A stretch of 64,000 nucleotides of DNA from Escallonia rubra (lineage: Eukaryota; Streptophyta; Magnoliopsida; Escalloniales; Escalloniaceae), in the NCBI GenBank assembly GCA_033065855.1, contig JAVXUO010002686.1, positions 62,001 through 126,000 on the forward strand, given 5' to 3'. Both the position numbers and the translations under genes were made by a program. Positions 39,201 to 47,579 of this stretch are shown here, one piece after another. Positions within the stretch are counted from its first letter, which is position 1. Each line of letters begins with the position of its first letter. Below the pieces are notes generated by a model, which saw only the letters and a list, made by a program, of their open reading frames with translations, did not search any database and had not been told where the DNA came from.

Positions 39201-40698
39201 TCACCGGGACCGAAAATGCTACTAGGACGAATGCAGCATGTGAGAAGCCCATTGATACCATTTGACTTAAGAACTAGTGCCTCTCCTTCAGCTTTAGTTG
39301 CAGAGTATGAATCATTGTGCTGTAACGTTATAAGCTTAGCCTTAGACATTAATCTAGTTTTCCTTGAGTAAGCTTTCATAACTAAGTACAGAAAAAATAA
39401 ATTGTCTTCCTACATTACTGCTAATAAAGGAACTATAATGAGATATAAAAAGGAATGTTATGCCGATGAATATTCATATGTTTATGGTGAGGCTATTAAA
39501 AATTGTTAACCAATACAAAACCTTACAGTATTTTTGTCACCAAATGTAGGTATAGCAACAAAAGAATGCATCTTTAGAGACAGCCGAAAAATAAAAGGCG
39601 TGTAAATGGCAGTTGAAAATTAACTGCTACTGGTTGCTCTTTTAAACTATGTGTCAAATTAACTGCTACTGGTTGCTCTTTTTTGCTTAATTCTTTAAGG
39701 AATTGGTGATCTGCAAGTATACTTCTTGTGGGTATATCCTTCTGCCGGCTTTTAACCCTCCAATAAAATCTTACTTACCAAAATTACAAACTTAAATGTA
39801 GATGATATCGAGAGTGACTTGTGATCAGGTCAGTACCTTAGCAGGATAAGGCAATGACTCATCCCCATTAATAATTCCATGTACTCCATCAAACACCACA
39901 CTGGGAGAGCTAGTGTAGATAAGTCTCTTCACTTTCAACTCAACACAAGCGTCAATTATGTTCTTGGTTCCTGCAGGCAGGTTGTAATTTTAGTAACACA
40001 TCAAGACACAGTCAACTTTTCTTTTGTGTGTGTGGGTGGGTGGGGGGTTGGGTTGCACCTCCCAAAGCATGAGAAAGTTAGAACTCTGATGATGTGCAAT
40101 ATGTGGCCACTGCCTTTACCTTGCACGTTTACTGAATGGTGGAGCTGGTGGTTGTTAATGGATGAATCTGGAGCAGCCATGTGGAAGACAACCTCAGCTC
40201 CTTCGCAAGCTGCAGCACGGAAATATTATGCAAGACAAGATCAATATAGTAAAAACCACTGCATTGAGCAATTGCACCTGTATATCCGTCTAACCACAGA
40301 ACCAGACACAAAACTTTGAACTTTCGAGACTCAATAACAGAAAAGAATAAAATCTAGTCTCACATTCAACTAAAAAATCTAATTAAAAGTTCACCAGGAC
40401 TATATTCTGTGCTATGTCCAGAAACAAAATTAAGAAATAAACTGGAAATAAGCGGATTGATGAGACCTTTGAGTACTTGGGACTTGTCCCGTAGATCGGC
40501 CGATACATATTGAGCGTGGCCTGACCGTAAAGCTTCGCCGACGGTTCCCTTCTCCTCCTCGGGCTCTAGCTTGATAGAGGGGCCCAAGTCGGCAATACGA
40601 ACGGAAAACATCTCATAACGGATGAGCATTTCCACCAAATGTCGTGCGGCGAAGCCTCTTCCCCCAGTCACCACACACCACCTCTCTTTGCCAGCCAT
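33230..40698 (-). CDS. 3-beta-hydroxysteroid dehydrogenase/decarboxylase with C-terminal reticulon domain, 12 exons
   Basis: Predicted ER membrane protein joining a sterol C-4 demethylation-type SDR (NAD-dependent sterol-4alpha-carboxylate 3-dehydrogenase) to a reticulon membrane domain, as in Arabidopsis At2g43420. Exons: 40698-40467, 40209-40120, 39970-39837, 39319-39149, 38608-38483, 37066-36987, 36084-35886, 34999-34894, 34729-34555, 34442-34286, 33619-33553, 33381-33230; 562 aa. The Rossmann motif VVTGGRGFAARHL is at ~9-21; its third glycine position is Ala. FHMAAPDSS and the catalytic YSATK (Tyr157, Lys161) follow, then IRPSSIFGPGD and YDFTYVENVAHGH. The reticulon part (~370-562) has hydrophobic hairpins (TLTAVLVLVALYFNFIAPGY, VAFSLLILSFLGAISLQSLF) and the ending AFVIYERKEDEIDGL. 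A TIR element ends 232 bp before the ATG. Confidence 0.93.
37454..37854. mobile_element. MITE-like 381-bp insertion with 10-bp direct flanks, intron 5
   Basis: TGCTTACTAC occurs at 37454-37463 and again at 37845-37854, as a target duplication would. The insert begins CACAGTTATCAGATC and contains several ACCGGTTC-like blocks (ACCGGTTCAG, GAACCGGTC, GAACCGG) known from a common plant MITE type. Terminal inverted repeats are weak (TCAGATCTGAACAGGAC against TCAGGACCGAGC). A 9-10-bp duplication points to a Mutator-type source. Confidence 0.6.
38056..38158. repeat. Tandem duplication, 51-bp unit
   Basis: The unit beginning ATCAACTGCTTTAATG at 38056 is repeated from 38107 with two or three differences (AATCTT against AATTCTT, AGCTTT against AACTTT). 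It lies in an intron of the 3-beta-HSD/reticulon gene. A 27-bp block (AAATTAACTGCTACTGG...) is likewise duplicated near 39616 and 39656. Confidence 0.85.
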
Positions 40699-40930
40699 TT
40701 CTTGTTATGCACCTGTTAGCAAAAGCAGATCAAATGGGTGTGTATCAAACATATATTTCTGGAACAAAAATATTGATCTTGTCTCCCTCACCTGAGATGA
40801 GCCTCCTCTCGACCCAACCCTTCGGAGATTTGGATTTCAAATTGGAAATTGAATTTGGAATTCACCTTTTGTTGTTTGGAGCAAATAAATTTTAATCACA
40901 CAAGTTTTATTTTGTGTTTGGAACACGGAA

Positions 40931-41050
40931 GGTAAATGCACTTTACCCCTCTATACTTTAAGGCGGTTAATGCGGTTGTACTATGGCCCCTCCCATTTTA
41001 AAAAGTTGAACTAAACCCTCCTGAACTCATCAAAATTGGGCAAAATGAAA
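40931..41050 (+). repeat. Left TIR of the Mutator-like element
   Basis: About 120 bp, inverted relative to 42824-42932. Outermost shared block GGTAAATGCACTTTACCCC, innermost shared block TTGGGCAAAATG. Confidence 0.85.
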
Positions 41051-41192
41051 CGGCCGTAACTGAGATTGTTGAAATGTCACAATTACCCTTGTATTAAACT
41101 CAACATCGAAGATTGTATCCACCGTTTTCAAACCATTCATTTTCCAAATTTCTCAAACTCTCGGTCTCCCAAATCTCTCTGCCGATTGAAGA

Positions 41193-41625
41193 TCAAGTGA
41201 TCATCATCGAGTAATCGCCGTTCACGTACCGCTTTTGGCCGTATCTGTGCTTACGGTCGGAGGTCCAGGAGCCGCGATAGGTGTCGCCGTCGGATCCAGT
41301 GAAGGTGTCGAAGCCCTTCATCCGACCCGACTTGAACTCGCCCTCGAAGGTGGCGCCCGAGGGCCAGGAGAACTTGCCCTTGCCGGAGGCCTTGCCGCGC
41401 TTCCAGTCACCCTGGTACATGCATCCGTCGCCCAGAGGTACTTGCCCGATCCGTGAGGCACGTGGCCCGAGAAGCTCCCGATGTACAGATCCCCGTTCTG
41501 GAGGTGTTTCTCCAGCGCCGCCGGAGAGGAGGCGGAGGCGACGGTGGCAAGAGTGACTCGGCGGGTGGTGGATTGGGATCTGGGTCGGGTCACAATAACG
41601 GGCTTGGGCTCTGTTTCTCTCTCTT
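41193..41625 (-). pseudogene. Truncated, frameshifted MORN-repeat fragment of a phosphatidylinositol 4-phosphate 5-kinase gene
   Basis: PIP5K makes PtdIns(4,5)P2 at the plasma membrane; the plant enzymes have N-terminal MORN repeats. Here the minus strand encodes [17 protein letters not shown], then [53 protein letters not shown] and [11 protein letters not shown]. That is the N-terminal part with about four MORN units and nothing of the kinase domain. A one-base loss near 41430 (after GKYLW) shifts the frame, and the sequence stops right after NGDY. Conserved glycines are changed (GFDTF, KHRYG where family members have GFGTF, KHGYG). It lies wholly between the TIRs at 40931 and 42932, so it was probably carried there by the element. 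Confidence 0.85.
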
Positions 41626-42823
41626 CCTCGGATCTCTCCCCGAGACCCAGATTGTCACCTCTCTCTTTCCCCGACACACCCAATCGGCAGTCAGCCAATC
41701 CCCAGACCAGACGGTAGACGGCAGTGACTCCCGTGAGTCCGTGACCCGTCCATGATGTCGATGACGGCGGGCCACTGGCCCGAGCAGATTCAGATCTAGA
41801 GACGACCTAACTGAGACACTGGACGACGGCGATGGCCGGACGGACGGACGGACAGACGACCGATTCGTTCAGATATGGAAGACCGGAACATGTCTCGAGC
41901 TGTGCAAGTGTGGATGTGCAGGCGAAGGGGAGGACTCTAATCCATTATGCCAAATAGGCGTCGGCGACGACGACAACGACAACGAGGACCAGCAACAGCG
42001 AGGACTTCCGGCGACGGCGTCAACAACAGTGAACAACTGTCTGCCTTAATTTCTTGAGCTTTTCTCTGCTTGGCTAATTTCAATTTCAAGTAATCTGATT
42101 GATTCTAGTTTAATTTCAGAAACAATATTTACATTCTAGTTTAATTTCTATTAATTGATTATATTTCAAAAATTCAAAAAACATGTTTGGTTATGGTTTA
42201 TTGGTGATTTGGTGGCACAATCTGCTTGATTCAATTTCAGAAATTATTCGTGATTTGATGGAACACCTTAATGGTTCGATTAATTTGCTTTGTTAATCCT
42301 TAATTGGCTAATTGTTTTTATAATTCATAATTTTCCTGGTTTCGCCCCTGGCGGTGTCTTCACTAAACGGTGTGGTCGAGGGGATGGGTTCAGGCATGTT
42401 TTGGGTCGAGGGGATGGGTTCACACACAAAAAAATACAACAAATAAATACCTTGTACGTAACATTGATTAATTTTAAAAAACATTGCTCACAAATTACAT
42501 CCAAAGTACATCATTTTTAGGTTACAAAATGCCTAAGACAGTTTGCCCCCTGTACTTTTATGTGCTTACTAACAACATTAACATTAACTAAGTCTTAAGC
42601 ATACTCTAGCACCTAAAACATCCATGCGACCACGACTCTCTTCCATTTGCAGGTTTTCTAAGGTTTGTAAAACAAGATAAAATGAAGTGGGTGGTTTTTT
42701 GGGTTTTTTTTCCAAGTCTTAAGCACTTTATTAGGTCAAATGGGTAGTTTCGTCCTAAAAATGCAAGATCTGGGCGCCAAACACTTCCCGCCTAAAAACT
42801 GTGTTAACTTGGATGGAAACCGT

Positions 42824-42932
42824 CCATTTTGCCCAATTTTGATGAGTTCAGGGGGGTTTAGTTCAACTTTTTAAAGTAGGCGGGGGCCACAATACAACCG
42901 CCTTAAAGTATAGGGGTAAAGTGCATTTACCC
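42824..42932 (-). repeat. Right TIR of the Mutator-like element
   Basis: About 109 bp, reverse complement of the left TIR without the 8-bp insertion. Direct GGTCGAGGGGATGGGTTCA copies lie inside the element near 42372 and 42403. Confidence 0.85.
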
Positions 42933-42959
42933 CTAAATTGGTGGACAATTATGTACTTG

Positions 42960-43940
42960 ATCTACGGTGAAAGATAAATTATCGTAAGTGATTTCACATG
43001 TGCCGGTGACATGTGTGAATAGCAGCAATGTAAGTGATTGTTTAGCGGCATTGACAGTAAAAGTGATGGGTGGTGAAGTGATGGTAACGATGATAATAGT
43101 GGTGGTGATGATATTGATGTATAACTAATGGTATGGACGATGACACCGGTGATTGCTGGCATCGACGGCGGCGGTGGTGGTGATGTAGCATCAGCGATGG
43201 TGTTGTACTTTGACATATGTGGCAATTGACAACGACAGCAGTGGTGGTGTACTTTGGCATCAACAATGACATCAACCGTGATGGAGGTGGTGGAGCGGTC
43301 TAATAATGGTACCGGTAGTAGTGGTGCTAGTGGCACCAAGGTGTGACTTCTGATTATATTGGTGGCATAAGTTACGGTAACAGCAGCAGAGACGGTAGTG
43401 ATAGTGGTGTTATGACATCAACAATGGCGGTGGCGGTGTGGCATCAACCACTGTGGTGATGAGCGGTATAATGATTGTAACGATGGTGGTCGTGGTGGTG
43501 GTAACCAAGTGTCACTAGTTGTATGTCGACGAGTGGTGCTGGTGGTGGTGCCAACAAACACATTGATTGTGACAAAGTTGATTAATTGCACCAACTGTAA
43601 TGGTGGTTACATTGGCAGTGGTGGTCGCGTTGATGATAGTACTGGTGGTAGTAATGATGCAGCGACAAATGTCGATGACAACGCTATTGACGATAATGGT
43701 GGTCGTAATGATGATGTAACACGCTTGACAGCATCGGTGACAGTGGTGTTGGGGGTGGTGTCACGTCGTGCGATGATGATAATGTATGGTATTTTGGTGG
43801 TGGGTGTAACTGTCCAGTAATGGCTATAGCACGTTGGTGGTGGTAGTAACAATAACGTGATAGTTGCAGTAATGGCAGCTGCAATAGTGATAGTAAAGGT
43901 GGTGTGGTAGTAGCAGTAACGAAAGACAATGGGTCATTGG
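42960..43940. repeat. Degenerate GGT/GAT/GTA simple-sequence block (~1 kb)
   Basis: Nearly 1 kb of interrupted trinucleotide-like sequence (GGTGGT, GATGAT, GTAGTG and similar) on the plus strand. It opens frames on both strands (for example 43509-43820 plus, 43607-43852 minus) whose proteins follow the repeat and show no domain. No precise repeat unit is kept, which fits an old expanded and eroded microsatellite. Confidence 0.7.
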
Positions 43941-46784
43941 GTATAAAGGTTCAGGAAAATGTGAGATAGGTAAATCATTATTTTAGTTCATGCTAACCCA
44001 AATCCCACGAAAACTGATCATTTCTCGTTAGATTTCACCTTATAGAAACATATTCTGTCAATTCCTATAAAATTCAATTCTAATTCATTTTCTTAATGTT
44101 TCAAACAACTAAATTTGGGTATTTGAAATAAAATTCATATGATTTCGTGCTTCCAAACACATTGTAGGTTACATTGTCTACAACAAATCCACCTTACATC
44201 TTCCTAATCAACGTAAATTGATGCCATGTTGCCTAGTAGGTGTTAAGTTACCATATGTTCAAAAAGCTTAAACTATTAGAGAATATGTCCAATAATGTTT
44301 ATCATGCTTTAACACTCCACCTCACGTACAAGCCTTGATTGCACAAAGAGAGTTAAATAATCAAGGTTCACTACCACCATGTGCACAAAATATGAAGAAT
44401 AATAAAAATGGGACCAAGTGTAAGAAGGAAGAATCAAACTCAAAATCTTACATAATAAGAACTCTGATATCATGTAAGTTAGCACATGCTTTAAAAGTTT
44501 ATTATGTTAAAGAATGTGCCCAACAATATATATCATACTTTAACAACAAGTCAGCACCAAAGAGTCAAATTTCATGATTTGTAAAAATATCAAGGGCTAA
44601 TTACACTTATGTCCCTGACGTTAGGGTATAATTACAGTCAAGGACATTAAGTTTAAAAATGTAACATACCGTGACCAAAACCTTTTCAAATGTATCAGCC
44701 GTGTACATCCGTCACAGATCCGTTAAAAAATTGTACTTTTTGGCTGTTGTCACTCATACGTATTTTTTTAATGCCAATACTACCCTTATACCGTATTTAT
44801 ACATATACACTATATAAAGATTAAAAATCCTGATTTAAAAAATTAAAGTTTCAACCTAATTCTCTTTCTTTCCAAATTAAAGTCTTAACCCTCATTTGCA
44901 AATTAGGTTATTTTTTCACTTTTTATTATTTTAGATCCTTTGTTTTTTCTTTTCTTTCTCTATTTTAAAATTTTTAAATTTTCACTTTTCCTAAATGCAA
45001 AATCTCTTCTTCTTCACCCCAGTCATCATTAATTTCCATCCAACCACAACAGCGATGGAGTCGGCGCCACCACCACTCCCGACGGGTCTCCATCTAAGCT
45101 ATTTCACCCCTTCGTACATCACCGGCGACCGATCAACCAACACCATCGCCGCCGACCAGATCCACCAACCATATCTAACCCGCGGCAAACCAAGATGAAC
45201 AACCGCACTTCACGTACAAAAACACGCGGGGAAAAATGGTTCTAGAATGGCACAAGCAAATCTGGCATTTTACAACCACCATGGCTTCGAAGTGCCATCC
45301 TTGTACTTATACGGACTATGATTACTAGAACCAAACACAATGTAGTCCATCTCTTTGGGCAACTTACCAGGAAGGCTGAACAAGAGAACGCAAAAATGGT
45401 CAAGGAGATGGAAGAAAAAACTACATAGTCACCAAACTTTTCAGCAAAGTTCTAATGTCATCTGCAATTTAATAAAACTGCACAGTAATAAAGGAGATCT
45501 AGAAAACAAAAGTGAAAACTGACAAGTTTGTGTCTACTAATAAAAAAGAAGTGGAAGCTGACAGGGTAGAGCTCAACATGCCCTGAAGATTATTTGGGAA
45601 AAACATGGATTAATTAACTGATAGATGAAGTAAAAACAAATGGATCAATTCAAATATGAAACAGCTAACCAACAATAACGAGAGTTCACATCAAATTTAA
45701 CTAGGAACACATGGTTAACAAACTATGGACTCGTATAGAAAGCATGGATTCATAGCATTTATTTTCTCGCTTCCAATGTACTTTAACAAATTCAGTAGAA
45801 TCTAACATACTCTTATGAGAGCTGATCAATTGACAATATTGGTAACTTAAGTTAAGTTGTCACCACTATCTGATTGTCCATCTATTACGGATGAATGAAC
45901 AATATTTATTTAGTTTAAAGTTAACTTCACTATCCGCTACATTATGTAGCGTACGGCGAAGTGGACCGTGTCAAGTATAGTGCTTAGTTTTTTTTTTCTC
46001 TTTTTTTGTAATCACCAAACATAATGTCTTTCGGAATTGTGATTCATCTTTCCAAAGGGACCCAAATGGTACTTGCACCTGCTGTTCTGGCTAGTAGTTA
46101 TAAAGACTTGTGATTTTTGAAGAAATCAGTGAGTAGTTCCAATTATTTGGGCCCTGGTGAATGTGTTAAGCGTCGTGGGCATAAAGGCAAGGGCAGCAGA
46201 GAGGCTGATGGCTGTGGTTAAGAGGAGAAGGCTGGTGGTGGTCGTTCTTGGTTAGGTGGTAGGTGACGGTTGGTGGTGATGAATGAAAGAAAGACGTTGA
46301 TGTGTTTAACTAGAGAGACCCAAGTATTTAGGATATACTTTTTTTTTCCTTATTTTTTAAGTGATGTTTCTAACTTATCCCTTTCAATTTTCTACTGCTT
46401 ATTGCTTTAACGCCTTTCGCCCCAAATAGTTGACGAAAGGTTTCACCAGACACATTTTCTTTATAATAGGGACTTATTCGCACACAATAAAATGAAAAGA
46501 ACTTGAAGGTTAGAAAGTGAAAACTTAAGGGCGGTATATGAAATTACTCTCTGATTCAATTATAACAAAAAAGAAAAAGAAAGAAAATTCGTACAAACTG
46601 ATTTTCAAAGGAAGAAGTGGGGAACTGAAGCTGACGTAGTGACGTGAACTCAGCTGAAACAGAACTGAATCTAACCTTGTACGTACTACTTATTACAACT
46701 AGATTCTCTCTCTCTCTCCGCTTCCTCTTTACCCCCCGTTTAGTTACTATTCTACTACCAGTTAATTCAATTCAACTTTTACCA
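43941..46784. other. Spacer upstream of the SAM-domain gene
   Basis: AT-rich. At 44590-44640 the sequence GGGCTAATTACACTTATGTCC followed by CCTGACGTTAGGG has the style of a transposon terminus, but no matching inverted end was found. A 67-aa frame at 44995-45198 has no recognised domain. A CT run (46706-46719) lies in the likely 5' UTR of the SAM gene; the in-frame upstream ATG at 46644 is probably non-coding leader. Confidence 0.5.
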
Positions 46785-47579
46785 ATGGCGGAGTTACAGC
46801 CACCAGAACCCCCAGTCACCACCACCACCACCACCACCGCACCACCACCGCCGCCGCCGCCTCCAACCACCATCAACATCGCCAACAACCTCGCCCCAAG
46901 CCTAGCCCCCAAGCGCCAGCGCCGCCCCAGCGTCCGCCTCGGCGAGATCGGCGATCACCCCCGCCGCCACAAATCGCCGTGGCGCTTCCACCGGCATCCC
47001 ACCCTGGCCTCCAAATCATCCAAAACCCGCCCCCTCACCAACCTCGTCAACAACGGCGGGGGCAACCTTAACAATTACACCGAAACCCTAGAATCCGAAG
47101 ACAATCTCGAATTTGGCCACCAAAAGCCGAAACTAAGGCGATCGGTTAAACGCGTCAGAACTAACTGGCCGGTCTTAAGAGCCGGTAACGGAGTCGATAA
47201 CAGCGAAGAGAACAGGGATTTTGAAGCGGAGGGCTCGGAAAGTCCGTTAAAAGAAGCGAGTCCGGTGAATTCTATCGACAATGTGGGGTTGGATTCGTCG
47301 TGGCACGGGCAGCGGAGAACGATTAGGGCTACGGTTTCGGAGAGCAGGGAGGATGGACTGCCCGAATCGAATAAATGCGGGACCAGTGACGGGGTGAGGG
47401 AGTGGTTGATTGGGCTGGGGCTGGGGCGATACGCTGCAGTTTTCGAGATACACGAGGTGGATGACGAGGTGCTGCCGATGCTGACGCTCGAGGATCTCAA
47501 GGACATGGGGATAAACGCGGTTGGCTCGAGGCGGAAAATGTACACTTCGATTTTGAAGCTTCGCAAGGGGTTTTCGTGA
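46785..47579 (+). CDS. SAM (sterile alpha motif) domain protein, single exon
   Basis: Intronless 264-aa frame. Starting at MAELQPPEPP, the protein has a Thr/Pro-rich low-complexity segment, a basic stretch (APKRQRRPSVRLGEIGDHP, then HKSPWRF) typical of a plant SAM family, a Ser/Asn-rich middle, and a C-terminal SAM domain (~200-264): VREWLIGLGLGRYAAVFEIH, DDEVLPMLTLEDLKDMGI and GSRRKMYTSILKLRKGF. SAM domains form homo- or hetero-oligomers; this plant group (Arabidopsis At3g48800/At5g23680-like, from memory) has no defined biochemical role. The basic RQRRPSVRLGEIG block suggests nuclear location or nucleic-acid binding, which is inference. The start at 46785 is chosen over 46644 because upstream residues look like translated leader. 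It is the only plus-strand gene in the window. Confidence 0.92.
   Translation: MAELQPPEPPVTTTTTTTAPPPPPPPPTTINIANNLAPSLAPKRQRRPSVRLGEIGDHPRRHKSPWRFHRHPTLASKSSKTRPLTNLVNNGGGNLNNYTETLESEDNLEFGHQKPKLRRSVKRVRTNWPVLRAGNGVDNSEENRDFEAEGSESPLKEASPVNSIDNVGLDSSWHGQRRTIRATVSESREDGLPESNKCGTSDGVREWLIGLGLGRYAAVFEIHEVDDEVLPMLTLEDLKDMGINAVGSRRKMYTSILKLRKGFS

Follow-up and report, generated by a model that had tools for sequence, protein, structure and literature searches.

Pack-MULEs, in which the terminal inverted repeats (TIRs) of a Mutator-like element (MULE) enclose a piece of a host gene, are mentioned for rice, maize and Arabidopsis in the report on PM-ZIBP of tomato, itself an amplified Pack-MULE family with 14 copies of one captured fragment (PMC3310237, 2012). 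Capture by MULEs in Oryza is described as favouring GC-rich sequence (PMC4858842), Pack-TYPE elements have been surveyed (PMC8903248, 2022), and a review of gene capture cites work in maize on the silencing of donor genes by small RNAs that arise from captured pieces (PMC13317346). The case presented here agrees with these published descriptions, as far as the cited passages go. A literature search for Pack-MULEs together with phosphatidylinositol or MORN gave none among the matches listed, which is no claim that the family is unpublished.

An element of this kind occupies positions 40931-42933 of the window, the 64,000-nucleotide stretch of Escallonia rubra DNA analysed here. Like PM-ZIBP in the relevant passages of its report, it belongs to a dicot Pack-MULE family in which a fragment of one identified host gene, here a PIP5K gene, is present in 14 copies with its parent in the same genome; it differs in that tandem TIRs are found in 13 of the 14 copies of PM-ZIBP (PMC3310237), whereas TIRs of the present family are single as far as examined, and in that the fragment is one of PIP5K and some copies carry a nested hAT-like element along with them. 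With the rice Pack-MULEs, as the cited passages present them, it has in common a non-autonomous MULE, a GC-rich coding fragment and an insertion near the 5' end of a gene, but the captured gene is a different one and the insertion lies within another repeat (PMC8903248, PMC4858842). Pack-TYPE elements are likewise TIR transposons that carry host coding DNA and no transposase; their survey, in the part cited, includes other superfamilies, whereas its ends and a transposase-bearing relative identify the present element as a MULE (PMC8903248). The phenomenon is thus a known one, well documented here, and knowledge of Pack-MULEs is unchanged by it. The whole account, in which a MULE captured part of PIP5K, spread, took in a hAT-like transposon and inserted into an older repeat (X), is in our judgement very probably correct.

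The features of the locus are as follows, in window coordinates.

40366-40698, minus strand: ORF with the first coding exon of a 3-beta-HSD/reticulon gene, ATG at 40698 (the span is that of the ORF).
40811-40930, plus strand: left part of repeat X, the older repeat that the MULE entered.
40931-41050, plus strand: left TIR of about 120 bp, exceeding the TIR of other copies by about 10 bp, outermost GG changed to AA.
41051-41209, plus strand: left subterminal MULE DNA; together with the TIR, 89% identical to one end of L061.
41210-41635, minus strand: captured PIP5K exon piece, the part coding for MORN repeats, in which one base of the parent gene is deleted.
41636-42350, no strand given: remnant of the nested hAT-like transposon, which has lost its left end and inner part but retains its right end, TTTCGCCCCTG.
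42351-42404, minus strand: captured PIP5K piece with the start of the coding region, ATG at 42397-42395.
42405-42420, no strand given: short filler where the capture ends on the right, duplicating PIP5K sequence close by.
42421-42823, plus strand: right subterminal MULE DNA, 91-92% identical to L061, about 355 bp of which are absent mid-way.
42824-42933, minus strand: right TIR, about 110 bp.
42934-44166, plus strand: right part of repeat X, on the other side of the MULE.

The preliminary description of the locus had recognised long inverted repeats around a PIP5K fragment with no transposase between them, and the layout above upholds most of this. The TIR arms pair in three blocks (40931-40953 with 42909-42931 at 96%, 40948-40968 with 42896-42916 at 95%, and 40987-41047 with 42825-42885 at 93%); the right end is at 42933 rather than 42932, with CCCC at 42930-42933, and the left end reads AAGG where most copies have GGGG. 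The five element ORFs submitted (shorter ones lay outside that set, and a sixth protein was the exon of the host gene) gave no Pfam match to a transposase, and all matches between the element and L061 fall outside the transposase ORF of the latter. The fragment is indeed of PIP5K, with MORN repeats (Pfam, 7.7e-13), but it was found to be split, into 41210-41635 and 42351-42404, by a transposon that had been missed.

The proposed history begins with a Mutator-like family whose TIRs measure about 110 bp; its transposase-bearing form, of about 5.8 kb, is represented by L061. This locus (contig C2873, 317 to 6149) has the same TIRs and an exact 9-bp target duplication, AAGAATGAA, and its 805-aa ORF matches MULE (PF10551, 2.1e-16), DBD_Tnp_Mut (PF03108, 1.9e-11) and Transposase_mut (3.1e-8). 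From its left end to 41210 the window element shows 89% identity to L061, and from 42421 to its right end 91-92%, with the 355-bp gap on that side. At the left limit this similarity stops where the PIP5K match starts; at the right limit the 16-bp filler lies between the two. By these sequence comparisons L061 is taken to be the transposase-bearing form of the family. Further TIR pairs about 5.8 kb apart occur on C1041, C1278, C1633 and C2833, and an 8.4-kb pair on C1750; L061 alone among these was examined. Near one end of L061 (533-775), an 80-aa ORF has a weak match to a GRF zinc finger (23.4 bits, below the cut-off of 25.9).

The genome searched was the window's own assembly, 566,129,122 bases in 3,222 contigs. 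The left TIR arm as query gave at least 40 matches (the best 40 of 273 candidates), and a pattern of the outer TIR bases occurs at 47 exact places genome-wide, 23 forward and 24 reverse, the left arm of the window included; the reversed control of this pattern occurs at none, so the recurrence is not due to chance. Several of the places form facing pairs, and the idea that the TIRs are unrelated, unpaired repeats accordingly falls. A query of 41180-42080 gave 43 matches (all 35 candidates scored), in which the PIP5K part is matched by 14 elements, the window copy included, and by one gene, L038; the other matches concern the nested transposon only. All 14 PIP5K-carrying elements have two TIRs. 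Exact target duplications of 9-10 bp flank 10 of the 13 siblings and an exact one of 8 bp flanks another (L047). In L041 and L043 the exact duplication is 5 bp only, extending to 9-10 bp with one mismatch, that of L043 within a run of T. Mispaired flanks served as a control (n = 182), with a longest duplication of 6 bp. The window copy has 2 bp, a background level that amounts to no duplication; this and the short exact matches of L041 and L043 weigh against the account. Such a duplication supports identity as a Pack-MULE, but decay can erase it and it need not be present at every copy.

Duplications of the 9-11 bp expected of Pack-MULEs are therefore present at the level of the family, in siblings and in L061, and it is at that level that identity as a Pack-MULE, proposed from the beginning, is well supported: the element is non-autonomous, its TIRs are common to a transposase-bearing relative, its donor lies elsewhere and no transposase was found in it. 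The genome search recommended earlier has supplied both the 13 siblings and the transposase-bearing L061, and spread by transposition gains from the exact 8-10 bp duplications at 11 of the 13; TIRs and 9-bp duplications suggest that the derivative would have been moved by transposase acting in trans. Members of the TIR family without a PIP5K piece were examined in three cases, L061, L070 and L071. The last two (C988:649930-651260 and C1389:1753205-1754500) are short elements with the same MULE ends and no match to the PIP5K gene, and their interiors, 90% alike, may be a second captured sequence.

The larger block of the window piece is 96.3% identical to L038 over 427 bp; the start codon falls in a second, short block. 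L038, on contig C2385, has a 398-aa ORF with seven MORN stretches, and the kinase domain of PIP5K (PF01504) is matched by four of six further ORFs submitted from the same strand; the 8 kb of this locus yielded no TIR. On the evidence of the alignments this PIP5K gene on another contig is the donor, the captured stretch corresponding approximately to L038 3432-3937, as the alignments read, from about 10 bases 5' of the ATG to about codon 165. The larger captured block has 62% G+C, against 40% for the window. The possibility that the fragment is the remnant of an ancestral PIP5K gene at this locus does not hold in this genome, where a TIR-free PIP5K gene with kinase exons exists elsewhere. With donor, transposase-bearing form and 14 copies of the derivative all found, one genome offers these together with the capture junctions, and the copies record later events, namely a nested insertion, two different deletions and remobilisation.

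The junctions show that the transposase region has been replaced by a stretch of about 506 bp, taken from the 5' end of the PIP5K coding sequence, presumably through a repair mechanism. The left junction is identical in all 14 copies except for point differences. On the right, the filler is present in eight of the 14, L032 is joined without it and L034 is joined elsewhere in the MULE; in L031, L041, L043 and L044 the search words did not find the right junction. A single capture followed by later changes is the simplest account of these junctions.

The captured piece lies upstream of the 3-beta-HSD/reticulon gene and on its strand, none of the 14 copies reaches a pN/pS of 1 relative to the parent (values go up to 0.66, with 0.21 for the window copy), and some copies retain long open frames despite a one-base deletion; these points would favour expression or selection of the piece, either as a new gene or within the 3-beta-HSD/reticulon transcript as a chimeric exon. 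That reading is nevertheless extremely improbable. A one-base deletion relative to the parent, counted irrespective of its position, affects 12 of the 14 copies (all but L034 and L044), and the PIP5K piece of several copies has further indels. Changes relative to the majority of copies number 139 (115 distinct), of which 84 alter an amino acid, where the same mix of mutation types would give 89.2 if there were no selection; selection as a reading of the low pN/pS was therefore rejected, the signal being gone once mutation types are considered. A chimeric ORF running from the element into the neighbouring gene is likewise ruled out unless splicing intervenes, for each of the three frames meets a stop on the way from the piece to the ATG. 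Given the deletion, the indels and the near-neutral number of altering changes, the piece is not maintained as a gene: the captured PIP5K copies decay neutrally and are no working gene.

The parent and the majority of copies differ at six positions, and the family is a clean case for gauging the decay of captured gene pieces. Most of the changes (108 of 139) are C>T or G>A, at rates of 57/1272 (4.5%) in CG, 26/792 (3.3%) in CHG and 25/1821 (1.4%) in CHH. DNA methylation in plants predicts the order CG > CHG > CHH, and the pattern in the copies suggests that it reflects DNA methylation.

The block between the two PIP5K parts, about 715 bp or about one third of the element, was found again at six fetched loci without TIRs (L039, L040, L042, L045, L046 and L048). 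At L039, L040, L045 and L046 it lies within a contiguous unit of about 1.4-1.5 kb with the ends CATGGGCGGAACC...GGTTCCGCCCCTG or near variants; the unit is interrupted in L042 and incomplete in L048. Both ends of the unit are present inside the PIP5K piece of L036, with GCGGTGTC on either side, an exact 8-bp duplication, and the unit in L039 has CCTTCAAC on either side, again an exact 8-bp duplication. The flanks match only partly in L042, L045 and L046, and not at all by eye in L040. Elements of the hAT superfamily have short TIRs and 8-bp target duplications, a rule by which we take the unit to be hAT-like. The recurrence of 41633-42345 outside TIR-bounded elements had made it a candidate for a second captured gene, which was rejected because the stretch is part of this transposon. 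L045 and L046, 97.6% alike over about 6.4 kb, are perhaps two haplotypes.

The copies of the Pack-MULE differ in the state of this insertion, L044 standing outside the grouping. Four (L032, L033, L034 and L047) read through an unfilled PIP5K site, three (L035, L036 and L037) have the left end of the unit, one deletion breakpoint is common to the window copy, L029, L030 and L031, and another to L041 and L043. Since L029 and L030, which have the breakpoint of the window copy, are each flanked by their own exact 9-bp duplications, the composite moved after the nested insertion. The common breakpoint, in copies with duplications of their own, shows that a hAT-like transposon entered the PIP5K piece in part of the family and that the composite then continued to move. 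A tree of 13 of the 14 copies (L047 was omitted for an internal duplication) had none of its 11 inner branches well supported, placed L031 with the outgroup (89/86) and did not group the four breakpoint-sharing copies, the label requiring three changes and a single change sufficing in none of 200 bootstrap trees. This weighs against the account but may reflect exchange between copies or too few sites. The tree being of no help, it is the shared breakpoint that gives the order of events.

The site that the window composite entered is repeat X, upstream of the 3-beta-HSD/reticulon gene. From 42944 the right flank is a repeat of about 1.2 kb with at least 48 matches, mostly at 65-77% (the best 40 of 657 candidates scored); the left flank, too, is similar to this repeat from 40811 onwards. 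Among the matches listed, both flanks are found in order and on the same strand on six contigs, with raw gaps between the flank matches of 28 bp (C433), 28 bp (C2357), 29 bp (C2418), 109 bp (C1857, where the right match begins 68 bases later), 29 bp (C3179) and 17 bp (C1314). C433 and C2357, whose scores are identical, may represent a single locus assembled twice. Four fetched, paralogous copies of X (L066-L069, on C433, C2610, C1712 and C2418) read through the insertion point free of any MULE; L068 differs from the other copies in its first part. The interior of X (window 42944-44166) is rich in GTGGTGGTG-type runs and has many diverged copies.

A clean insertion would add 9 bp, whereas at this site 14-15 bp of X are missing from the window. 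Loss of the left target duplication in a small deletion, either as the element inserted or afterwards, would account for the missing bases, and the alignments with X suggest that the window copy lost its duplication in this way. Alternatively, the window copy could be a recombinant of two family members rather than a single insertion, which would account for the missing duplication and sits well with TIRs that differ in their identity to those of other copies (80-88% on the left, 87-96% on the right). Such an exchange is very unlikely: if unlinked, it would not give flanks that correspond, in order, to both sides of a single repeat X with only 14-15 bp missing, and the internal breakpoint is identical to that of L029, L030 and L031. 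A single insertion with a small deletion is preferred.

The neighbouring gene, identified on the minus strand by 3Beta_HSD matches in three ORFs (E values of 8.3e-7, 2.1e-15 and 4.7e-8) and by one match to Reticulon (2.5e-10), has its ATG at 40698, and the left end of the element is 232 bp away; the preliminary description was correct on both points, and had placed the element in the promoter of this gene. The distance stands, but the element landed in an older repeat that was already before the gene. X begins about 113 bp upstream of the ATG, and a paralogue of the first exon (C1321, 77%) is similar only as far as window 40738; since X spans the insertion point and this similarity ends where it does, the MULE split a repeat and no demonstrable promoter. 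At 40700-40725, shortly before the ATG when the minus strand is read, TTTTGCTAACAG resembles a 3' splice site when read by eye, and a 5' UTR intron spanning the insertions could exist.

It is possible, though doubtful, that the element alters expression of the neighbouring gene, through promoter activity of a TIR, spread of methylation or a location within a 5' UTR intron. Its short distance from the ATG, the splice-site-like sequence and the methylation-type gradient of mutation in the copies are in keeping with such an effect, which is weakened by the prior presence of X before the gene. Small RNAs could in principle cross-match the parent, as 209 of the 21-base words of the window element are exactly present in the parent piece. 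A broader reading, in which a compound hAT-like/Pack-MULE unit moves and the 14-copy family would act as a source of small RNAs on the donor PIP5K gene while methylation spreads onto the 3-beta-HSD/reticulon gene, is unlikely as a whole; movement of the composite is the supported part of it, and the regulatory part is putative. The plus strand has an ORF with a SAM domain at 46635-47579, oriented divergently to the 3-beta-HSD/reticulon gene.
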